Part shown: piece by piece, positions 35,720 through 56,237 of the stretch | Layout: each line of letters opens with the position of its first letter | How positions within the stretch are numbered: position 1 is the stretch's first letter | DNA from: Calothrix sp. PCC 7716 | Lineage (GTDB): Bacteria; Cyanobacteriota; Cyanobacteriia; Cyanobacteriales; Nostocaceae | DNA: 64,000 nt | Direction: 5' to 3' | NCBI RefSeq assembly: GCF_019977735.1 | Contig: NZ_AP025018.1 | Coordinates: 4,402,001 to 4,466,000, forward strand | Notes under the pieces: model-generated | The model's input: the letters and a program-made list of their open reading frames with translations, nothing else | Told to the model about the DNA's origin: nothing | Databases searched by the model: none | Made by a program: the position numbers and the translations under genes

Positions 35720-37939
35720 ATGGGCAAGGTAGTCGGCATTGACCTGGGTACAACCAACTCAGTTGTTGCTGTCATGGAGGGTGGCAAGCCGGTGGTGATT
35801 GCCAATGCTGAAGGAACACGTACAACCCCCTCCGTTGTTGGCTTTAGCAAAGACGGTGAACGAGTTGTTGGACAAATGGCACGGCGCCAAACCGTTCTAA
35901 ACCCACAAAATACATATTTCGCAGTTAAGCGGTTTATTGGACGTAAGTATTCTGAGCTTAGTCCCGAATCGAAGCGCGTTCCTTACACAATTCGTAAAGA
36001 CGAAGTTAGTAATATCAAAATTGTATGTCCCAGGTTGAGTAAAGATTTCTCTCCCGAAGAAATTTCATCAATGATTTTGAAGAAATTGGCAGACGATGCT
36101 AGTCGCTATTTGGGAGAAAAAGTAACTGGTGCAGTTATTACAGTTCCTGCTTATTTTAACGATTCGCAGCGCCAAGCTACGCGCGATGCTGGCAGAATCG
36201 CAGGTTTGGACGTTTTAAGAATTCTCAACGAGCCAACCGCCGCATCTTTAGCTTACGGTTTAGATAAAGGTCGTAGCGAGACTATCTTGGTGTTTGACTT
36301 GGGTGGTGGTACTTTTGATGTTTCGGTGCTGGAAGTTGGGGATGGTGTTTTTGAGGTAAAGTCCACCAGTGGAGATACTCAGCTAGGTGGTAATGATTTT
36401 GATAAGAAAATAGTTGATTGGCTGGCTGCAAAATTTGAAGAAGAACACGGTGTAGATTTACGACGCAGTGACCGCCAAGCTTTACAGCGTTTACTCGAAG
36501 GCGCCGAGAAAGCCAAAATCGAACTTTCTGCCGTTAGTGTTACTGATATTAATTTACCCTTTATTACCGCTACCGAAGATGGTCCTCAGCACATTGAAAC
36601 ACGGTTAACTCGTTCTGAATTTGAAGGGTTATGTGAAGATTTATTAATGCGAGTACGAACACCTGTTAAACGTGCGCTCAAAGATGCTGGTTTGCGTCCT
36701 GATGATATCGATGAAGTGGTATTAGTGGGTGGAAGTACGCGGATGCCAATGGTAAAAAGGTTAGTCGAAGATTTAATTGGTATTGAAGCCAATGAAAATG
36801 TTAACCCTGATGAAGTTGTGGCAATAGGCGCCGCTATTCAAGCTGGTATTATTGGCGGTGAACTTAAAGATGTCTTACTACTTGATGTCACACCATTATC
36901 CATAGGGTTAGAAACAATAGGTGGTGTTGCCAAGAAATTAATTCCCCGCAATACTACAATTCCCGTTCGTCGTTCGGATATTTTCTCCACATCCGAAAAT
37001 AATCAAAACACTGTGGAAATTCACGTAGTTCAAGGTGAGCGAGAAATGGCAGGAGATAATAAATCCCTTGGTCGTTTCAAGCTTTATGGTATTCCTCCAG
37101 CACCGCGCGGTATTCCCCAAGTACAAGTATCTTTTGATATCGATGCTAACGGTATATTACAGGTAACAGCCCTCGACCGCACGACTGGACGCGAACAAAG
37201 TATAACTATTCAAGGCGCCTCGACATTGAGCGAGTCAGAAATTACCCAAGCTATTCGCGAGGCCGAGAAATTCGCCGAAACCGACCGTCAACGTAAAGAA
37301 AAAGTCGAAAAGCGTACTCGTGCTGAAGCATTGATTTTACAAGCAGAACGTCAACTGCGAGAAGTCGCTTTAGATTTTGGAATGCAGTTTGCCCGCAGTC
37401 GGCGCCAGCGTATTGATAATATATGTCGTGAACTGCGTGAAGCATTGCAAGCAAACGACGACCGAGGTATCGACCAGTCCTACGCTGACCTTCAAGATGC
37501 ATTGTCCGAATTGAACCGCGAAGTGCGCGCGTACTATGCGGATGACGAAGATGATGATTTGTTCGGCACCATTCGCGACATCTTTACAGGTGGCGATAAA
37601 GACGACCGAGATAACCGTGATTATGGTAGGGACTATGGTCGAGACTCTAACCGTGATTATGGTAGGGACTATGGTCGAGACTCTAACCGTGATTACGGTA
37701 GAGACTATGGTCGTGATTCTAACCGTGATTATGGTCGTGATTCAAATCGTGATTATGGACGTGATTATGGTCGAGACCCTGACCGTGATTATGGTTCTTC
37801 TGGAAGAAATTCTGATAGAGATTCAAGAAATGATTACGGTAGAGGAGGACGTTCGGACTTTGGTAAACCTCCTGACTCGCGTCGTGACCGTCCAAGCTAT
37901 CGAGATAACTGGGATGATGACGATGATGATTGGCTGTAA
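35720..37939 (+). CDS. dnaK: Hsp70 chaperone DnaK (DnaK3-type) with Arg/Asp/Tyr-rich tail
   Basis: 739-residue Hsp70. The ATPase domain begins [20 protein letters not shown] and contains [15 protein letters not shown] and [20 protein letters not shown]. The substrate domain contains [18 protein letters not shown]. Residues about 634-700 are a repeat of [12 protein letters not shown] units encoded by near-identical DNA repeats, ending in [11 protein letters not shown] instead of EEVD/EEK. An extended C-terminus and a downstream dnaJ gene fit the cyanobacterial DnaK3 type, which is membrane/thylakoid-associated in Synechocystis. AGGAGA precedes the ATG. No CIRCE element was seen. A GGCGGG/CCCGCC terminator follows. 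Confidence 0.93.
37618..37800 (+). repeat. Coding tandem repeats in dnaK tail
   Basis: Blocks such as GATTATGGTAGGGACTATGG and TCGAGACTCTAACCGTGATT recur at least three times with few differences. They encode RDYGRD and SNRDYG. Near-identity at the DNA level suggests recent expansion by slippage. Confidence 0.85.
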
Positions 37940-38130: not shown

Positions 38131-39126
38131 ATGTCACTCAATTTGCAGAATTTTCGAGATTATTACGAAATTTTAGGAGTATCCAAAGATGCCTCATATG
38201 AAGATATTAGGAAAGCTTATCGCAAATTAGCGCTTCAATTTCATCCTGACCGCAATCAAGGAAATGAGCAAGCCGCAGAAAAATTTAAAGATATTAATGA
38301 AGCTAAAGAAGTTCTTTTAGACGAAGTTCGACGCGCACAGTACGACGAATATTGTCGTCATTGGAAGCAAAAGGGTTTTACAAGCAAAACTCCAAAAAGT
38401 GCCAGTTGGTCCGGTAGTAATAAAAATAATCGTAGTAGTAATACTGTAGACCCTGGTCAATACAGTAGTTTTGATGATTTTATCAACCAAGTTATTGGTG
38501 TTGGCGCCACTAGTAAAGAAACAAGAACACCTTCTAACGGCTACACAAATGGTAGCAGCGACCCGTTTCGCAATACAACTCGCAAAGTATCTTACAACGC
38601 AAAGGAACGACCACAGCGTCGTGATATCGAAGCGCGTTTAACTATTCCACTCAGTAAAGCTTATCAAGGTGGTTTAGAACGAATTCGTCTTGAAGATGGA
38701 CGCTCGTTGGAAGTAAATATGCCTGCTGGGATGGTGACAGGTCAAACGATTCGACTACGTGACCAAGGTATAAACGGCGGTGATTTGTACTTAAAAATAA
38801 CAGTTGAGCCAAGTTCACAATTTAAACTTGAAGGTTTAAATATATTGTGCCAAGTCCCGGTTACTCCTAGTGAAGCTGTTTTAGGTGGGCAAATAGAGGC
38901 GCCAACGCTAGATGGTCCTGTTAAAATGTCAATACCAAGTGGAGTACGTTCGGGTCAAAGATTTCGTTTAGCTAATAAGGGCTATCCTAACGAAGCTGGT
39001 AAACGTGGAGACCAACTCGTTGAAATTCAGATTGTCACTCCTAGAACTATCAGCGACCAAGAACGCGAACTGTATGAAAAGTTACGCCAAATTGAGACTT
39101 TTAAACCACGTGCTGACTTACTTTAA
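38131..39126 (+). CDS. dnaJ: DnaJ family co-chaperone (CbpA-like, no zinc finger)
   Basis: 331 residues. The J domain (residues 8-73) is intact, with HPD in [18 protein letters not shown]. The linker is Asn/Ser-rich, and the C-terminal peptide-binding domain carries [19 protein letters not shown] and [12 protein letters not shown]. There is no Cys-rich zinc-finger domain, so it is a class B (CbpA-like) DnaJ. It activates the ATPase of Hsp70 and delivers substrates. It follows dnaK in the same direction, the usual partner arrangement for dnaK3. The symbol is family-level. Confidence 0.9.
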
Positions 39127-43250: not shown

Positions 43251-43772
43251 ATGCAACAACATAGCGAACCAACTTATTACGCATTGCTAGGACTGCATCC
43301 AAGTGCGTCAGTAATTGACATTCGACGCGCATATCGTGAACTTAGTAAGCTATACCACCCAGATACTACTGAGTTGCCAGAGAAAGTTGCTACAGCTAAA
43401 TTCCGGGAAATCAATGAAGCTTACGCCACTCTTAGCAGTCCAGAACGACGGTTAAACTACGATTTTAAAATTGGCTATTCGCGTTTTGGGGTTATTCAGG
43501 CGCCTGCCGATTTAAATCGTCCATATAATTCTTACGATTGGAGTAAGTCAGCTTATCTTGACGCTACCGACCGTCCGCTTTCAGGTGGTGAACTTTTTGC
43601 ACTCTTTATTCTGGGACTGACGTTTGTAGGTTGCTTGTTACTTGTTGTTGTAGTCGGTTTAACGCGCGGAGATAGTGCATTTGTTTCTATTAATCAACAA
43701 CCTGTTTCTGTTGAACAAGTTACCAAATTACCTGCATCAACGAAACCACATACATTAAATAGCCGTTTATAA
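43251..43772 (+). CDS. J-domain protein with one membrane segment
   Basis: 173 residues. The J domain (residues 6-70) has an intact HPD in LSKLYHPDTTELPEKV, and is followed by a linker and a transmembrane helix (LFALFILGLTFVGCLLLVVV, residues about 120-140). The J domain faces the cytoplasm if the C-terminus crosses the membrane, so it could recruit Hsp70 to a membrane site. It is followed by DUF3143 at 43844 with 71 bases between; the two are often neighbours in cyanobacteria. Confidence 0.88.
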   Translation: MQQHSEPTYYALLGLHPSASVIDIRRAYRELSKLYHPDTTELPEKVATAKFREINEAYATLSSPERRLNYDFKIGYSRFGVIQAPADLNRPYNSYDWSKSAYLDATDRPLSGGELFALFILGLTFVGCLLLVVVVGLTRGDSAFVSINQQPVSVEQVTKLPASTKPHTLNSRL

Positions 43773-51012: not shown

Positions 51013-51049
51013 GTAGCATAGGCCAGACAGCCTGTGCTACTTTTTTTTT
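51013..51049 (+). terminator. Strong rho-independent terminator after clpC
   Basis: GTAGCATAGGC (51013-51023) and GCCTGTGCTAC (51030-51040) pair with one G-U across a 6-nt loop, followed by nine T residues. It is related to the GCACAGGCA repeat at 34681. Confidence 0.9.
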
Positions 51050-51224
51050 GCAACGGATGTAACGGATAGTTTATTGGTTAACAAAAAAACTTGTAACGAT
51101 ACGGTAATTTCCGAAATTAGGCGCCCTCAATTTGTATAAATTATCTAAACCAATGCATAAAACTGTTAACAATCCACTGCAATAGTAAATAATATAAGCT
51201 GTATAACTACTCTAGGAGGGAAAG

Positions 51225-53420
51225 ATGGGTAATGTAGTCGGGATTGATTTAGGCACAACCAACTCTGTCGCTGCTTTTAAGTTTGCCCAAGTCGAAGTCG
51301 CTACCGCTACAGATAACTCACCTCCCGACCGAAAGTTAACTCGCTCGGTTGTAGCGTTGGCTCAAAATCGGTTAGTTGTCGGTCAACAAGCTTATAATCA
51401 ATTACGCGCAGACCCAGAAAATGTGATTATTTCAATTAAGCGTTTGATGGGTAGGGGTTTCGCTGACTCAACTGTACAGGAGCAGTTACACCGCTTCGGT
51501 TATAAAGTTACTCAAGCTACATCTGGAACTGAAAATAGTTTGGCGGTTTGGCTGGGTGGAAAAGAATATCAACCAGAAGATATTTCCGCCGAAATTTTAA
51601 AGAAAGTAGTAGAAAATGCCCAAACTTACCAGAATCAGCAAGGGCAAACTAGCATTATTAATGAAGCAGTTATTACAGTCCCAGCATATTTTAACGATAA
51701 GCAAAGACACGCTACACGTACAGCTGCGATTCGCGCGGGCTTAAATCCTCGCGAGTTGCTACCTGAACCTACTGCTGCTGCAATTTCTTATGGGTTTACA
51801 CCCGATGAATCAAATGATGTAAAAACGATTCTTGTTTACGATTTTGGTGGTGGTACATTTGATGTTTCGTTGTTAACAACTAGCGGTAATCAATTTATAG
51901 AACTTGGTAAAGCTGGAAATCTCTGGTTGGGTGGGGATGACATCGACCAACTAATTATTGATTTTGTTAAGAAGCAAGTTGCTGTACAAGAAGGTATTGA
52001 TGATATTGAAGCATTAATTGCGAATATGGCTGATTACCAGCAAGCGCGGTTTCGTAGCGATATGAAAATTGCTGTTGAATGGGCAAAAGTCGCTTTAAGT
52101 AATACTCAACAAGTACGAATTATTCCCCCAACTCCTTTATTTAACGAGTTGGGAATGCCGATAATGATAGACGTGGAACTCACGCTTCAGCAGTTCGAGG
52201 AACTTATTTCCCCGTTAATAGAACAAACTATCCCCATTTGTTATGATGCGATTGCGTATGCTGAGTACACCCCCGATTTAGTAGATATGGTTTTACTAGT
52301 GGGTGGTTCATCGCAAATTCCACTAGTTGCGCGCAAAATACAAGAAGCATTCGGCGCCGATAGAGTTGTCGTTCACCCTCGTCCAATGTATGCTGTGGCA
52401 GAAGGTGCAGCAATTGTAGCTGCTGGGTTAACTCAAAAAGTTGCCACTGTTTCACGCGACTATTATATACAGCTAGTTGATGGCGCCCACAAAGTCATAA
52501 ACCGTGGGGAAGTTCTCCCATTTAGAACTGCTCAAACTTTTAAAACTGTTGCAGATGGACAACGTTTAATTCGGTTGGAATTTTTCAACCGCGATGATGA
52601 ACGTAAAATTATGGAGCCAATTGGTAAAATTTGGCTGCCTTTATACCAGCGTTATTCCAAGGATACCGAAGTACTAGTTGCTTTAGAATTAGACGAACAA
52701 AATGGTAGCTTGCAAATTACCGCTGTTTTAAAAAATGACCCTTCGGTAAAAGTCAGTAGTTTGTTCTCACGTGGTGGAACAGATGAAAAAATCAACGAAG
52801 AAGTTGATGAAATTATTCAAGATATAAATAATCGTGGGTACTCTGCCGAAAGTGTAGAGGAAGTTAGTCAGCAAGTCATGCGAATAATTCAAGTTACGAA
52901 CCAAATTACTGACCCCGCTACAGGTATAGAGCGGGAGGATATTCGCGAACAAGCTTACAAAAAATATGAACAGCTAAAAGAATATATTTCTGTTGAACGT
53001 AAAACAGCTTCTTACTGGGCTTATGAATGTAATTTTGTAGTACATACCTATGGTTTTCTAATTCATCCCAGTCAACAAGAACGTTTGCAAATGATTGCTT
53101 TACAGCTACGAAACGCACTCAATCAAAATGATATCTCAGCTATGCAAACAGGCGCCGAGAGGGCAAGTCAAGAAATGATGCTGCTCAGTAACGAAGTTAA
53201 ATTTATTCTAAATTGCCGTGATGCTACTTATTATGCCAATCAAGTTTCTCCAGCACGTGGTGCAGTAATTAACGATAAAAAAGAACGGATAGTAGCAGCA
53301 CTGCGACGCGGTGATAACGAAGAGGCCAATTATATTTCTCAGGAATTGTGGGGTGAAGTTAACTACTGGCTGTCGCAAAATATACAAACAGGGAAAATAG
53401 ATACAGGGTTAAGTAGATGA
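51225..53420 (+). CDS. Divergent Hsp70 (DnaK-like) with an alternative C-terminus
   Basis: 731 residues. The ATPase domain is intact: [40 protein letters not shown] and DMVLLVGGSSQIPLVARKIQ. The substrate-binding beta part is shortened (TVADGQRLIRLEFFNRDDER then ALELDEQNGSLQITAVLKND), and the C-terminal 220 residues are helical and unlike DnaK (EREDIREQAYKKYEQLKEYI, then NEVKFILNCRDATYYANQVS). AGGAGGGAAAG lies before the ATG. It is the first gene of a five-gene operon with GrpE-like and J-like partners, so it is likely to be a dedicated chaperone machine. Its substrates are unknown. Confidence 0.9.
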   Translation: MGNVVGIDLGTTNSVAAFKFAQVEVATATDNSPPDRKLTRSVVALAQNRLVVGQQAYNQLRADPENVIISIKRLMGRGFADSTVQEQLHRFGYKVTQATSGTENSLAVWLGGKEYQPEDISAEILKKVVENAQTYQNQQGQTSIINEAVITVPAYFNDKQRHATRTAAIRAGLNPRELLPEPTAAAISYGFTPDESNDVKTILVYDFGGGTFDVSLLTTSGNQFIELGKAGNLWLGGDDIDQLIIDFVKKQVAVQEGIDDIEALIANMADYQQARFRSDMKIAVEWAKVALSNTQQVRIIPPTPLFNELGMPIMIDVELTLQQFEELISPLIEQTIPICYDAIAYAEYTPDLVDMVLLVGGSSQIPLVARKIQEAFGADRVVVHPRPMYAVAEGAAIVAAGLTQKVATVSRDYYIQLVDGAHKVINRGEVLPFRTAQTFKTVADGQRLIRLEFFNRDDERKIMEPIGKIWLPLYQRYSKDTEVLVALELDEQNGSLQITAVLKNDPSVKVSSLFSRGGTDEKINEEVDEIIQDINNRGYSAESVEEVSQQVMRIIQVTNQITDPATGIEREDIREQAYKKYEQLKEYISVERKTASYWAYECNFVVHTYGFLIHPSQQERLQMIALQLRNALNQNDISAMQTGAERASQEMMLLSNEVKFILNCRDATYYANQVSPARGAVINDKKERIVAALRRGDNEEANYISQELWGEVNYWLSQNIQTGKIDTGLSR

Positions 53421-53617
53421 GTATGAAGCTAATGTGTCCAGTTTGTCAGCGACCAGATATTGAAAATAATATTTGTCCAAATTGCGAAACCGACCTTTCT
53501 TTAATACGAATGCTTACAGAATTACCGCAGCAACGTAAAAATACTTCTATATGGTTGTTAGTTATAGTCGCAATTTTTTGTTTAATTTTAGGTTTTATTC
53601 TAGCGGCATTAATATAA
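53417..53617 (+). CDS. Zinc-ribbon single-pass membrane peptide
   Basis: 66 residues. Cys7, Cys10, Cys20 and Cys23 (LMCPVCQRP and NNICPNCETD) form a zinc-ribbon-like knuckle, and residues about 43-64 (IWLLVIVAIFCLILGFILAA) are a transmembrane helix at the C-terminus. Its start overlaps the Hsp70 stop by four bases (ATGA), and a second ATG follows at 53423. It would tether the chaperone system to a membrane; this is inference from topology. No family is recognised. Confidence 0.75.
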   Translation: MSMKLMCPVCQRPDIENNICPNCETDLSLIRMLTELPQQRKNTSIWLLVIVAIFCLILGFILAALI

Positions 53618-53692
53618 TTTTATACAAGTAAACTAATGTTTATTACACGCTGGTTTAATTCTCTAAGTCGCTTACTGTTAGGAGTCGGAATT

Positions 53693-55405
53693 ATGGACTT
53701 TTTTGAAAAAATAAATAACAGCAAGCAAGCATTTGAGCGGGCAATAGCACAAGCGCAAAAGCACAAGTATTTAGAAGCGCTAAATATTGCCGAGGAAATA
53801 CTTGATATTTGGTATTCTCAAGAAAACGCGAATGAGAAAAAGCTAAGAAATTGGTTTGCGGATGACTTAATCAAAAAAATCAAACAGCAACTAGCAGAAT
53901 GGGAGCCAAAAGCAAACAATGAGTATAAAGCAGCGAAAGAAAGAGCATACTGGTTAACGAGCGAAGGACGGTTTGAGGAAGCTATTGCTTTATTTGAACC
54001 AGTACATCAAAGATATTACGAACCAGCAGCTAGGAAGTTTATTAACGAGTTATATCAGGTTATAACTGGTAAAAGTTCTTTTAATTTAGGTTTACTAGCA
54101 GAACAAGCTGGAGATTTTGCAACCGCTATTTCTCATTACCAAAATGCGGTGATAGCTTCACCTTGTTGGGATGTAGAATGTCGAATAAGACTAGCGATTA
54201 TTGCAATTAAAACTCAAGACTGGCAACAAGCGCGCGTTCATATTAAAGATATTAATACTAAACAAGCGACTTATATTAGAGGATTTATTAGCGCGCAACA
54301 AGGAGACTGGCACTCCTGCAAACTTGAATGGCAAAAAATATTACCTCATGAAGTACAGCTAGAAAAATCTTCAGCCCGTGAATTAATAAAAGCAAAACGC
54401 CATATACAACAACTAGTAGACGCACATAATCTTCAGCAAGCAAAAATAGAAAGTCAAAACTTTTTACTTAAATATGGCGATGATGAAATAGTACGAAATA
54501 ACCTTGAAAAAAATATACAACCTCGTTTAGAACTTGACTTATGGTGCCGACAACCCTGGCAACATATAGATATAGCTGAACAGCAATGGTTAGAACGATT
54601 AGATATTAAAGCTTTACATAACTGGGCACTCGTAGCATATCATTATATTCAAGCCAATCCCCATTTATACGATGAACTATATGATGAACTAATCGTTGCC
54701 TGGTCAACAGCCATAGCTAACTTACATTTAAACCCATTGCTACAAAATATTACATGGATGGGCGCCACACCCGTTGATTTAACTGAAGTATTCGAGCAAC
54801 TACTACACAAACTCGAAGATTTAATTAATTCAGTAGAAGATAAATCCCAAAAGTATAAGCAATCATATGAACTATACCGTCTTGAAACCGAAGCTTTACG
54901 TTTGATGGGTATTCCAGCAAAGCTTGGTGTAAGAGTTAAAGGTTTATTTTTAACACCAGGTTGCTATCACCGTTACCGTCATCAAATAAAATTTCCACCA
55001 TTACCAGGTAAACTGTGGGCAACTTTATACACAGACTGGTACTCAGCAGTATTGGCTTGTCTCAACGGCGATAACTTTAAGGCAAAAGAAGTAAAACCCA
55101 AAACGGCGCCAGTTTCAGAGGCAGAAAAATTCGCGCAAAGATTTGTGTCTTATCACGAAGGTTGTTACTATTTAGAAATCGAACCCGGAGGTTATCCGCG
55201 TTGGCGTTCTGCTGTAACTCCTCTACGGTTAGCCAAACCAGAAATTCAAGCATCACCAGAATGGCACGCGCGAGTCGAGGAACTTTGTCAATTACATTAT
55301 AAAGCTGTAGCTTGGGACAAAAACGAACGTCGCGAATTTGCTCAGTTTTGGTACGAAATTTTAGAAAGTTCCACTGCTAAATATTATATAGATGATGATA
55401 AATGA
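53693..55405 (+). CDS. Large helical (TPR-like) protein of the Hsp70 operon
   Basis: About 570 residues. The first half contains TPR-like helical pairs (FERAIAQAQKHKYLEALNIA, ERAYWLTSEGRFEEAIALFE, LGLLAEQAGDFATAISHYQN, DWQQARVHIKDI). The second half is a helical domain I do not recognise (GIPAKLGVRVKGLFLTPGCY, then LPGKLWATLYTDWYSAVLAC). The ATG at 53693 has AGGAG eight bases upstream, better than ATG 53636, which would add 19 mostly hydrophobic residues. It may present substrates or other proteins to the Hsp70. The 3' end overlaps the J-like gene by 14 bases. Confidence 0.75.
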   Translation: MDFFEKINNSKQAFERAIAQAQKHKYLEALNIAEEILDIWYSQENANEKKLRNWFADDLIKKIKQQLAEWEPKANNEYKAAKERAYWLTSEGRFEEAIALFEPVHQRYYEPAARKFINELYQVITGKSSFNLGLLAEQAGDFATAISHYQNAVIASPCWDVECRIRLAIIAIKTQDWQQARVHIKDINTKQATYIRGFISAQQGDWHSCKLEWQKILPHEVQLEKSSARELIKAKRHIQQLVDAHNLQQAKIESQNFLLKYGDDEIVRNNLEKNIQPRLELDLWCRQPWQHIDIAEQQWLERLDIKALHNWALVAYHYIQANPHLYDELYDELIVAWSTAIANLHLNPLLQNITWMGATPVDLTEVFEQLLHKLEDLINSVEDKSQKYKQSYELYRLETEALRLMGIPAKLGVRVKGLFLTPGCYHRYRHQIKFPPLPGKLWATLYTDWYSAVLACLNGDNFKAKEVKPKTAPVSEAEKFAQRFVSYHEGCYYLEIEPGGYPRWRSAVTPLRLAKPEIQASPEWHARVEELCQLHYKAVAWDKNERREFAQFWYEILESSTAKYYIDDDK

Positions 55406-55763
55406 CACTAACCCCTATGAAATTCTCGATGTTTTGCCAAACGCATCAAACGCTGAAATAAATCAAGCATTTGCAACAGCAATGAAACAGCGAAAATATC
55501 CTGTAGATGCCATTGCCAAAGCGCGCAAATGCTTGATGAACCCCAAAGAACGTATAATGGCAGACTATCTTCGTCCCATGCTACCAGAAAATATTAGTGA
55601 TTTCCAACGCGAAGATTTTACAGAACTCGAAGAATCTACAGAGCTAGAATTTTTACCAGAATTTGATGGTTTAACAGAAGCTGTTGCTAATATTGGGCAA
55701 ATATCTGAAATTGACCGTAGAGTTGGAACGAATTTGATATCACATCTAGAAAAAGAGAAATAA
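55392..55763 (+). CDS. J-domain-like protein lacking the HPD motif
   Basis: 123 residues. The N-terminal 55 look like a J domain (NPYEILDVLPNASNAEINQA, then KARKCLMNPKERIMADYL), but the loop that should carry His-Pro-Asp reads RKYPVDAIAKA, with no HPD. The C-terminal half is acidic (TELEESTELEFLPEFDGL). HPD is required by classical J proteins to stimulate Hsp70 ATPase, so this one probably binds its Hsp70 differently or only scaffolds. It overlaps the previous gene by 14 bases, and the GrpE-like ATG directly follows its stop. Confidence 0.8.
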   Translation: MMINDTNPYEILDVLPNASNAEINQAFATAMKQRKYPVDAIAKARKCLMNPKERIMADYLRPMLPENISDFQREDFTELEESTELEFLPEFDGLTEAVANIGQISEIDRRVGTNLISHLEKEK

Positions 55764-56237
55764 ATGAAAACAGAATCTCAAAAACTAACAATAACTTCCC
55801 AACAGCGCGTGGAGATAATAGAAGCAGTCAGCGCTTTGATGAAAGACAAATTTTCATTACAACAAGCTTTAAATCAACAGCAACAAATAAACAATGCCAA
55901 CAATGAAGAATTATTTTTAGAACTGTTAGAAGTAATAGATTCTCTAGAAATATTACAGAACTATATGAACTTACAGCTTGATGTTCCCCCTAACTGGGCA
56001 AGTTTACCCAAAGGTATAGGTAGCATCAAAAAAAGAATGTTAGGTATATTGGAAAAACGACAAGTGGCGCCAATAGAATTTGAGCAAACAAAACCTGACT
56101 TTAGTTTGTGTAAAGTTGTAGGAACAGAAGCGCGCGACGATTTAGAAAATCAAACAATTACAAAAATTGTCAAACGTGGTTTTAGTTTAAATAAAGAAAT
56201 ATTGCGACCAGTTGAAGTTATTGTATCTAAAAGCTAG
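55764..56237 (+). CDS. GrpE-like nucleotide exchange factor
   Basis: 157 residues. The helical N-terminus (FSLQQALNQQQQINNANNEE, then LFLELLEVIDSLEILQNYM) and the C-terminal KVVGTEARDDLENQTITKIV, then KRGFSLNKEILRPVEVIVSK, match GrpE, where the C-terminus contains the beta-wing and the LRPAxVxV end. It lacks the long paired coiled coil of standard GrpE (about 190-200 residues). It should release ADP from the operon's own Hsp70. It is the last gene of the operon and directly follows the J-like gene. Confidence 0.82.
   Translation: MKTESQKLTITSQQRVEIIEAVSALMKDKFSLQQALNQQQQINNANNEELFLELLEVIDSLEILQNYMNLQLDVPPNWASLPKGIGSIKKRMLGILEKRQVAPIEFEQTKPDFSLCKVVGTEARDDLENQTITKIVKRGFSLNKEILRPVEVIVSKS

Follow-up and report, generated by a model that had tools for sequence, protein, structure and literature searches.

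How could an Hsp70 chaperone machine run when its J-protein has no His-Pro-Asp (HPD) motif? The question is raised by a five-gene operon in a 64,000-nucleotide stretch of the Calothrix sp. PCC 7716 genome (hereafter the window), where a divergent Hsp70 is encoded together with a zinc-ribbon membrane protein, a tetratricopeptide repeat (TPR) protein, a J-like protein and a GrpE-like protein. HPD is regarded as essential for J-protein stimulation of Hsp70s (PMC11349236; papers given by PMC number are cited here from excerpts). We think it probable that the five genes form a single Hsp70 machine, dedicated and tethered to the membrane, whose Hsp70 lineage is distinct from DnaK, HscA and HscC and whose J-like protein docks without the Asp-Arg pair of the HPD contact.

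51225..53420, + strand: gene 1, divergent Hsp70, 731 aa, with complete ATPase motifs and about 214 residues past the beta domain
51753..51755, + strand: codon of Glu177 of the Hsp70, aligned to the HPD-contacting Arg167 of DnaK
53400..53417, + strand: C-terminal DTGLSR tail of the Hsp70
53417..53617, + strand: gene 2, zinc ribbon (C7, C10, C20, C23) and one transmembrane segment, 66 aa
53636..55405, + strand: gene 3, TPR-type scaffold protein, 589 aa, short form
55392..55763, + strand: gene 4, J-like protein, 123 aa
55497..55508, + strand: Y-P-V-D loop of the J-like protein, at the canonical place of HPD
55764..56237, + strand: gene 5, GrpE-like putative exchange factor, 157 aa

The operon had been proposed in a first-pass annotation, and the five plus strand open reading frames are indeed there, with overlaps of 4 and 14 bases and with genes 4 and 5 directly abutting. 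Of the two gaps given for the 5' side of gene 3, the 75 bases that go with a start at 53693 are borne out, while the start at 53636 leaves 18 bases and not 19. The 570 residues ascribed to the third protein are valid for the later start only. We favour 53636 (589 aa) because the hydrophobic N-terminus encoded there is common to relatives. The J-like protein does read RKYPVDAIAKA without HPD, but the Asp of Y-P-V-D had gone unremarked. None of the five proteins scores up to the cut-off of any NCBIfam model.

Conservation of the five genes as a unit

When 292 cyanobacterial genomes were searched with gene 3, 21 gave matches, the window's own counted. Twenty loci were retrieved, of which 16 have the same five-gene order, one has an Hsp70-J fusion replacing the J gene, two are truncated at a contig end and one shows no matches. 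A scan of named genomes with a stretch specific to this Hsp70 gave 79 loci from the best 80 of 140 relatives; the set leaves out L163-L166, keeps three other Hsp70s (L135-L137) and overlaps in genomes with the gene 3 set. Among the matches listed, the order Hsp70, zinc ribbon, TPR, J-like, GrpE-like is held in 60 of these 79 loci. Six of the 60 carry an extra or split piece (L063, L069, L106, L118, L120 and L121), and the 54 operons with exactly five pieces have median spacings of -4, -4, 13 and 1 bases. The other 19 loci comprise two fusions followed by grpE, 14 incomplete loci and the three other Hsp70s. Ten of the incomplete loci lie at most 200 bases from a contig end, including L126, whose Hsp70 is also split. 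The five genes are thus not often apart among the Hsp70-found loci, and the comparison supports the proposal of a dedicated alternative Hsp70 set with a fixed gene order.

An Hsp70 lineage with a changed docking site

Gene 1 matches Pfam HSP70 at 319 bits (cut-off 20.6, 6e-95) over residues 4-592, beyond the ATPase domain. The ATPase residues D8, T11, K70 and T199 are invariant where present, E171 is found in 70/71 sequences, and E267 and K270 are kept in 15/15 representatives. The protein nevertheless falls short of the DnaK equivalog cut-offs (302.7 vs 648 for NF001413, 296.3 vs 822.55 for TIGR02350) and of those of the HscA models of NCBIfam (258.1 vs 620, 252.3 vs 708.55). We built a tree from E. 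coli DnaK, HscA and HscC and from cyanobacterial, Desulfobacter, deltaproteobacterial and spirochaetal members. The operon Hsp70s form a single clade (support 99/97) separate from DnaK, HscA and HscC, and are split from DnaK1-3 of the same genome at an SH-aLRT support of 100. Their sister is a faster-evolving Hsp70-like group (97/95), a placement that long branches make unsure. E. coli HscC, itself on a long branch, groups with another Hsp70 of this genome (L005; 99/99) and not with the operon Hsp70s.

The VLLLDVTP linker, which holds D393 in DnaK, occurs in 0/76 aligned Hsp70s, some of them fragments: the alignment has gaps there in 73/73 cyanobacterial and 3/3 other sequences, and two non-cyanobacterial Hsp70s in a second alignment show unlike residues. 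The place of the linker reads SRDY, ARDY or AHDY in operon Hsp70s, SRDY being the window copy. DnaK E217 and V218, which we take to belong to the same contact region as R167, are changed in 14/14 operon representatives with a residue there. R167 of DnaK pairs with the Asp of HPD and with linker D393 (PMC7289447). Among cyanobacterial operon Hsp70s with a residue at this position, 68/70 have Glu and 2/70 Ile; Arg is found in 3/3 of the others.

The non-cyanobacterial Hsp70s (L131, L133 and L132) also carry a zinc-ribbon-like insert where the ATPase and substrate domains meet, which scores under the Pfam cut-off in L131.

A J-like protein without HPD

The J-like protein of the window reaches 20.6 bits with Pfam DnaJ (cut-off 27.8, 5e-4), and the best scanned relative 27.1. 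AlphaFold2 predicts a J-domain fold with a shortened helix II-III loop, followed by a less certain helical tail; families unlisted by the fold search are not thereby excluded. We read 64 of 66 J-like sequences, two being left out. Absence of HPD, as annotated for the window, holds across the family, since literal HPD is found in 0/61 J-like proteins. The commonest loop residues are K-x-Y-P-V-D, with the loop Asp in 44/61 and H-P-V-D in six rows. The canonical pair of a J-domain Asp and an Hsp70 Arg is found in 0/61 operons. The loop Asp would face Glu in cyanobacteria (44/61) and a basic loop residue would face Arg in the other phyla (2/61), so the chemistry of the contact may have changed.

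Natural fusions of the Hsp70 to the J-like domain, found in three cyanobacterial genomes, argue for contact between the two proteins. L050, a second Hsp70 in its genome (G109), has 716 aa with the J-like domain at the C-terminal end, replacing the lid; L125, from Geminocystis sp. GBBB08, is cut at its start. In the third, L127 from Aliterella atlantica (565 aa), the J-like domain is joined soon past the ATPase domain and most of the substrate domain is gone. The predicted model of L127 (pTM 0.63) is not one from which docking can be read.

Because of the Glu at R167 and the absence of the canonical linker, the usual HPD docking site appears to be gone. From the sequences, the J-like subunit most likely docks on its own Hsp70 in a non-canonical manner, not through the HPD Asp-Arg pair. 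One could instead suppose that the J-like protein is passive or inhibitory, as Pam16 is, and that a normal HPD J-protein of the cell stimulates the Hsp70 ATPase. The genome would offer candidates, with 15 Pfam DnaJ matches over the cut-off of which 13 read with HPD, and Pam16 and TbPam18 are precedents for such J-like proteins (PMC11349236, excerpt). We nevertheless find this unlikely, as it would leave an HPD protein without the docking site just described, the operon itself has no HPD J-protein, and the Hsp70 is in some genomes fused directly to the J-like domain.

Two J-like proteins, L091 (9131-10354) and L096 (13527-14996), have a transmembrane-like stretch and a C-terminal part weakly like SPOR. 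With 18.5 and 17.3 bits against a Pfam cut-off of 21, a SPOR domain is not claimed.

The other subunits and a proposed mechanism

Gene 5 matches Pfam GrpE at 68.9 bits (cut-off 25.8, 5.5e-19), and a profile of the GrpE-like proteins finds the solved GrpE structures 4ani and 1dkg. Its N-terminal part is short, since the match spans profile positions 48-165 of 165. Gene 3 matches Pfam TPR_19 at 2.2e-6. A G-[LI]-x-[RK] motif ends 57/64 operon-type Hsp70s longer than 700 aa. The EEVD tail is a precedent for a chaperone tail that binds a TPR protein, and by analogy the conserved Hsp70 tail may bind the TPR protein of the operon.

Gene 2 has two CxxC pairs, whose four cysteines are invariant in the family, and one hydrophobic segment; Zn_ribbon_3 scores 19.1 against a cut-off of 27. 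The membrane component expected from the first-pass annotation is present, and most relatives' anchors carry LysM in addition (Pfam match in 56/71 gene 2 copies scanned, the window included). No Pfam LysM match is found in the window's gene 2, and the protein ends after the transmembrane segment. The window Hsp70 groups, with good support, with L059, L060, L090 (Acaryochloris) and L099. We call this subclade the short subtype: its gene 2 products, the window's included, have 61-81 aa and its complete TPR proteins 553-603 aa. Isolated short gene 2 products are seen elsewhere as well (L107, 69 aa; L124, 98 aa). In L095, L101 and L108 the TPR protein has an extra N-terminal segment matching the gene 2 profile, and the segment of L101 has a LysM match under the cut-off.

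We propose the following mechanism. The Hsp70 would bind and hydrolyse ATP, as its conserved residues suggest, and the GrpE-like protein, judging from homology and its place in the operon, would reset it. The J-like protein would keep the J fold and dock on its own Hsp70 by a contact other than the HPD Asp-Arg pair. The TPR protein could act as an adaptor and recruit the Hsp70, perhaps by way of the conserved TGLSR tail at the Hsp70 C-terminus, and the zinc-ribbon protein would pin the assembly to the membrane. From the charge before the transmembrane segment and the domain order, the ribbon is presumably cytoplasmic and LysM, in most relatives, outside; the window, with no LysM and a shorter TPR protein, has the short subtype of this arrangement. 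Such tethering would place the chaperone cycle at the inner face of the envelope, acting on membrane or exported clients.

It is conceivable that the same parts make a signalling switch rather than a folding machine, the ATPase changing state when envelope stress is sensed by way of LysM or the membrane, with the TPR protein relaying the signal. A membrane protein with LysM and a zinc ribbon at opposite ends would suit this function, as would the gene 2-like segments on some TPR proteins (one with the sub-cut-off LysM match), the SPOR-like stretches, also under the cut-off, on two J-like proteins, and the loss of most of the substrate domain in the L127 fusion. We hold this to be improbable, even more so than a Pam16-like role. 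The window Hsp70 matches Pfam HSP70 well past the ATPase domain, the short subtype does without any LysM, and the unit contains neither regulator nor kinase. A folding machine at the membrane remains our preferred reading.

Distribution and turnover

In the window's class the operon is patchy, being present in 22/291 genomes and 16/131 genera. A TPR profile of gene 3 matches 185/386 genomes of the phylum at E 1e-5, mostly generic TPR. By best match, gene 3 exceeds 100 bits in 29/386 genomes and the next genome is at 44 bits. Among these 29, the gene is apparently broken in G385 (four stops) and G368 (one TAA, split) and is a 111-aa fragment in G237; the single stops in G328 and in the intact gene 3 of the window are possibly the gene's own stop. 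Two of the 60 ordered loci are non-cyanobacterial, from Desulfobacter latus (L133) and from a Spirochaetales metagenome-assembled genome (L131). In the genome of a third such locus, L132, the J-like match is on a different contig. Outside cyanobacteria the J-like protein is found in 2/297 genomes of the Desulfobacter phylum and 1/247 of the Spirochaetales phylum, seed genomes counted.

At the window's site itself, close relatives carry the other subtype. The genome of the window (12.37 Mb, 10 contigs) encodes flanking ClpC, LysA and LepB proteins that, wherever a counterpart was available, share 97-99.8% identity with Dulcicalothrix desertica PCC 7102 and with two strains of Calothrix, suggesting close kinship of the host with these strains. 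A long subtype operon occupies the same site in Dulcicalothrix (L070) and Calothrix (L064, L069), with aligned flank DNA 90-97% identical and an Hsp70 only 56% identical to that of the window. In L069 a 407-base remnant survives that matches the 3' part of the Hsp70 gene of the window at 90% identity, together with an 89-base piece of the downstream flank, and L070 has 39 bases of the upstream flank sited after the long operon.

L069:17671-18311 and L070:14618-14656: remnants of the short operon lying 3' of the long operon; window positions 51093-51128 and 52999-53405

In the simplest reading of these sequences, both operons, long and short, once stood in tandem in an ancestor, and one of them was later lost, the long one in some lineages and the short one in others. 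Such reciprocal loss suggests that the two subtypes are partially redundant. In L069 the long operon and the remnant of the short one flank an open frame of 1047 residues (L069:14394-17534, minus strand), the start of which, as far as we can judge, resembles a filamentous haemagglutinin-type protein.

Patchiness in the class, sporadic presence in other phyla, tandem copies and reciprocal loss at one site might also be expected of a conflict or anti-phage system that is passed on as a cassette. This we regard as very improbable: the five genes are constant, with no toxin, nuclease or variable effector, and gene 3 is unmatched in PLSDB plasmids. PADLOC gave nothing notable, its single match, to the TPR protein, being Csa3 with 17 bits. 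Matches in PHROGs are three families without a name, two of them Hsp70-like and one GrpE-like, and a partition protein at 27 bits.

Surroundings of the operon and a second locus

51013..51040, + strand: terminator-like hairpin and T-run directly 3' of clpC and 5' of the operon
51214..51219, + strand: AGGAGG, ribosome-binding-like, 5 bases 5' of the Hsp70 ATG, from reading the sequence

The count of terminator-like hairpins in the region (4) is not above that in shuffled sequences (4.3), and promoter-like sites show no excess (21 vs 19.1). Conserved neighbours were considered as a clue to function and set aside, as flanks differ beyond close kin and the largest cluster, signal peptidase I, is found at 10/77 flanked loci. 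The region 7-16 kb upstream of the operon holds a DnaK3-type Hsp70 with a long Asp-Arg-Tyr-Gly-rich tail (35720-37939), which exceeds the cut-off of NCBIfam NF009946, an adjoining DnaJ (38131-39126) and a small J-protein that has a hydrophobic stretch at its C-terminus (43251-43772).

The same genome has a second locus with an altered HPD. On contig C1, from 4621496 to beyond 4624431 (minus strand), a long frame that is TPR-like by eye, a 98-aa J-like protein, a 262-aa GrpE and an Hsp70 grouping with HscC lie in a row. The J-like protein reads FPAH near the HPD position and is found in 21/194 class genomes. Residues were read at 16 of the 21 loci; two of these (L209, L212) contain an HPD that comes a few residues later. 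The position of R167 is Gln in 11/12 readable Hsp70s and Arg in the distant L219. With R167 changed here too, HPD may have been lost or shifted twice.

Comparison with known systems

Searches of open-licence PMC full texts listed no paper on the operon. We conclude that it probably encodes an Hsp70 machine that is conserved, linked to the membrane and apparently undescribed, and in which the J-Hsp70 contact is altered; this points to an undescribed envelope-linked chaperone of cyanobacteria. A J-type partner and an exchange factor are preserved in these operons and the active site of the Hsp70 is intact, yet both sides of the canonical trigger are changed. The role of the J-domain beyond HPD thereby becomes directly testable, and the operon may show how an Hsp70 machine runs without the HPD switch. 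Three prokaryotic Hsp70 types are named in an excerpt of PMC8215388 (DnaK, HscA and HscC), and duplication of DnaK is treated in PMC11019930. We put forward, tentatively and with more doubt than conviction, that the operon Hsp70 is a fourth class, its ATPase governed without the HPD-R167 ion pair and its cycle coupled to the membrane, and often the cell wall, by the zinc-ribbon-LysM anchor.

The DnaK1-DnaJ3-GrpE system of type IV pili in Nostoc punctiforme (PMC9239167) is likewise a specialised cyanobacterial Hsp70 serving an envelope process. There dnaK1 sits between grpE and dnaJ11, unlike in the operon, and the terms tetratricopeptide, TPR and LysM are absent from the main text of that paper. 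Gene content rules out that the operon is this known system.

HscC with DjlB and DjlC resembles the operon in being a non-DnaK Hsp70 with a suggested role at the plasma membrane and tail-anchored J-proteins, but HscC is said to lack a GrpE signature (PMC8215388, excerpt) whereas the operon family has its own GrpE. In our alignment E. coli HscC keeps R167 and D393, and the operon Hsp70 falls in another clade. Pam16/Tim16 and TbPam18 resemble the operon in pairing a J fold that lacks HPD with a membrane-associated Hsp70 (PMC11349236, excerpt); they are eukaryotic and mitochondrial, and the operon is without an HPD partner of the Pam18 type. HscA-HscB is comparable as a dedicated Hsp70 with its own J-protein, but E. 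coli hscA and hscB lie in the isc operon and the window Hsp70 is far under the HscA cut-off (258 vs 620).

With DnaK-DnaJ-GrpE of E. coli, and with the cyanobacterial DnaK1-3, the operon shares the Hsp70 ATPase motifs, the J fold and a member of the GrpE family. It differs from that system in its separate Hsp70 clade, in having neither the VLLLDVTP linker nor HPD, in the Glu that replaces R167, and in the added TPR and membrane subunits.

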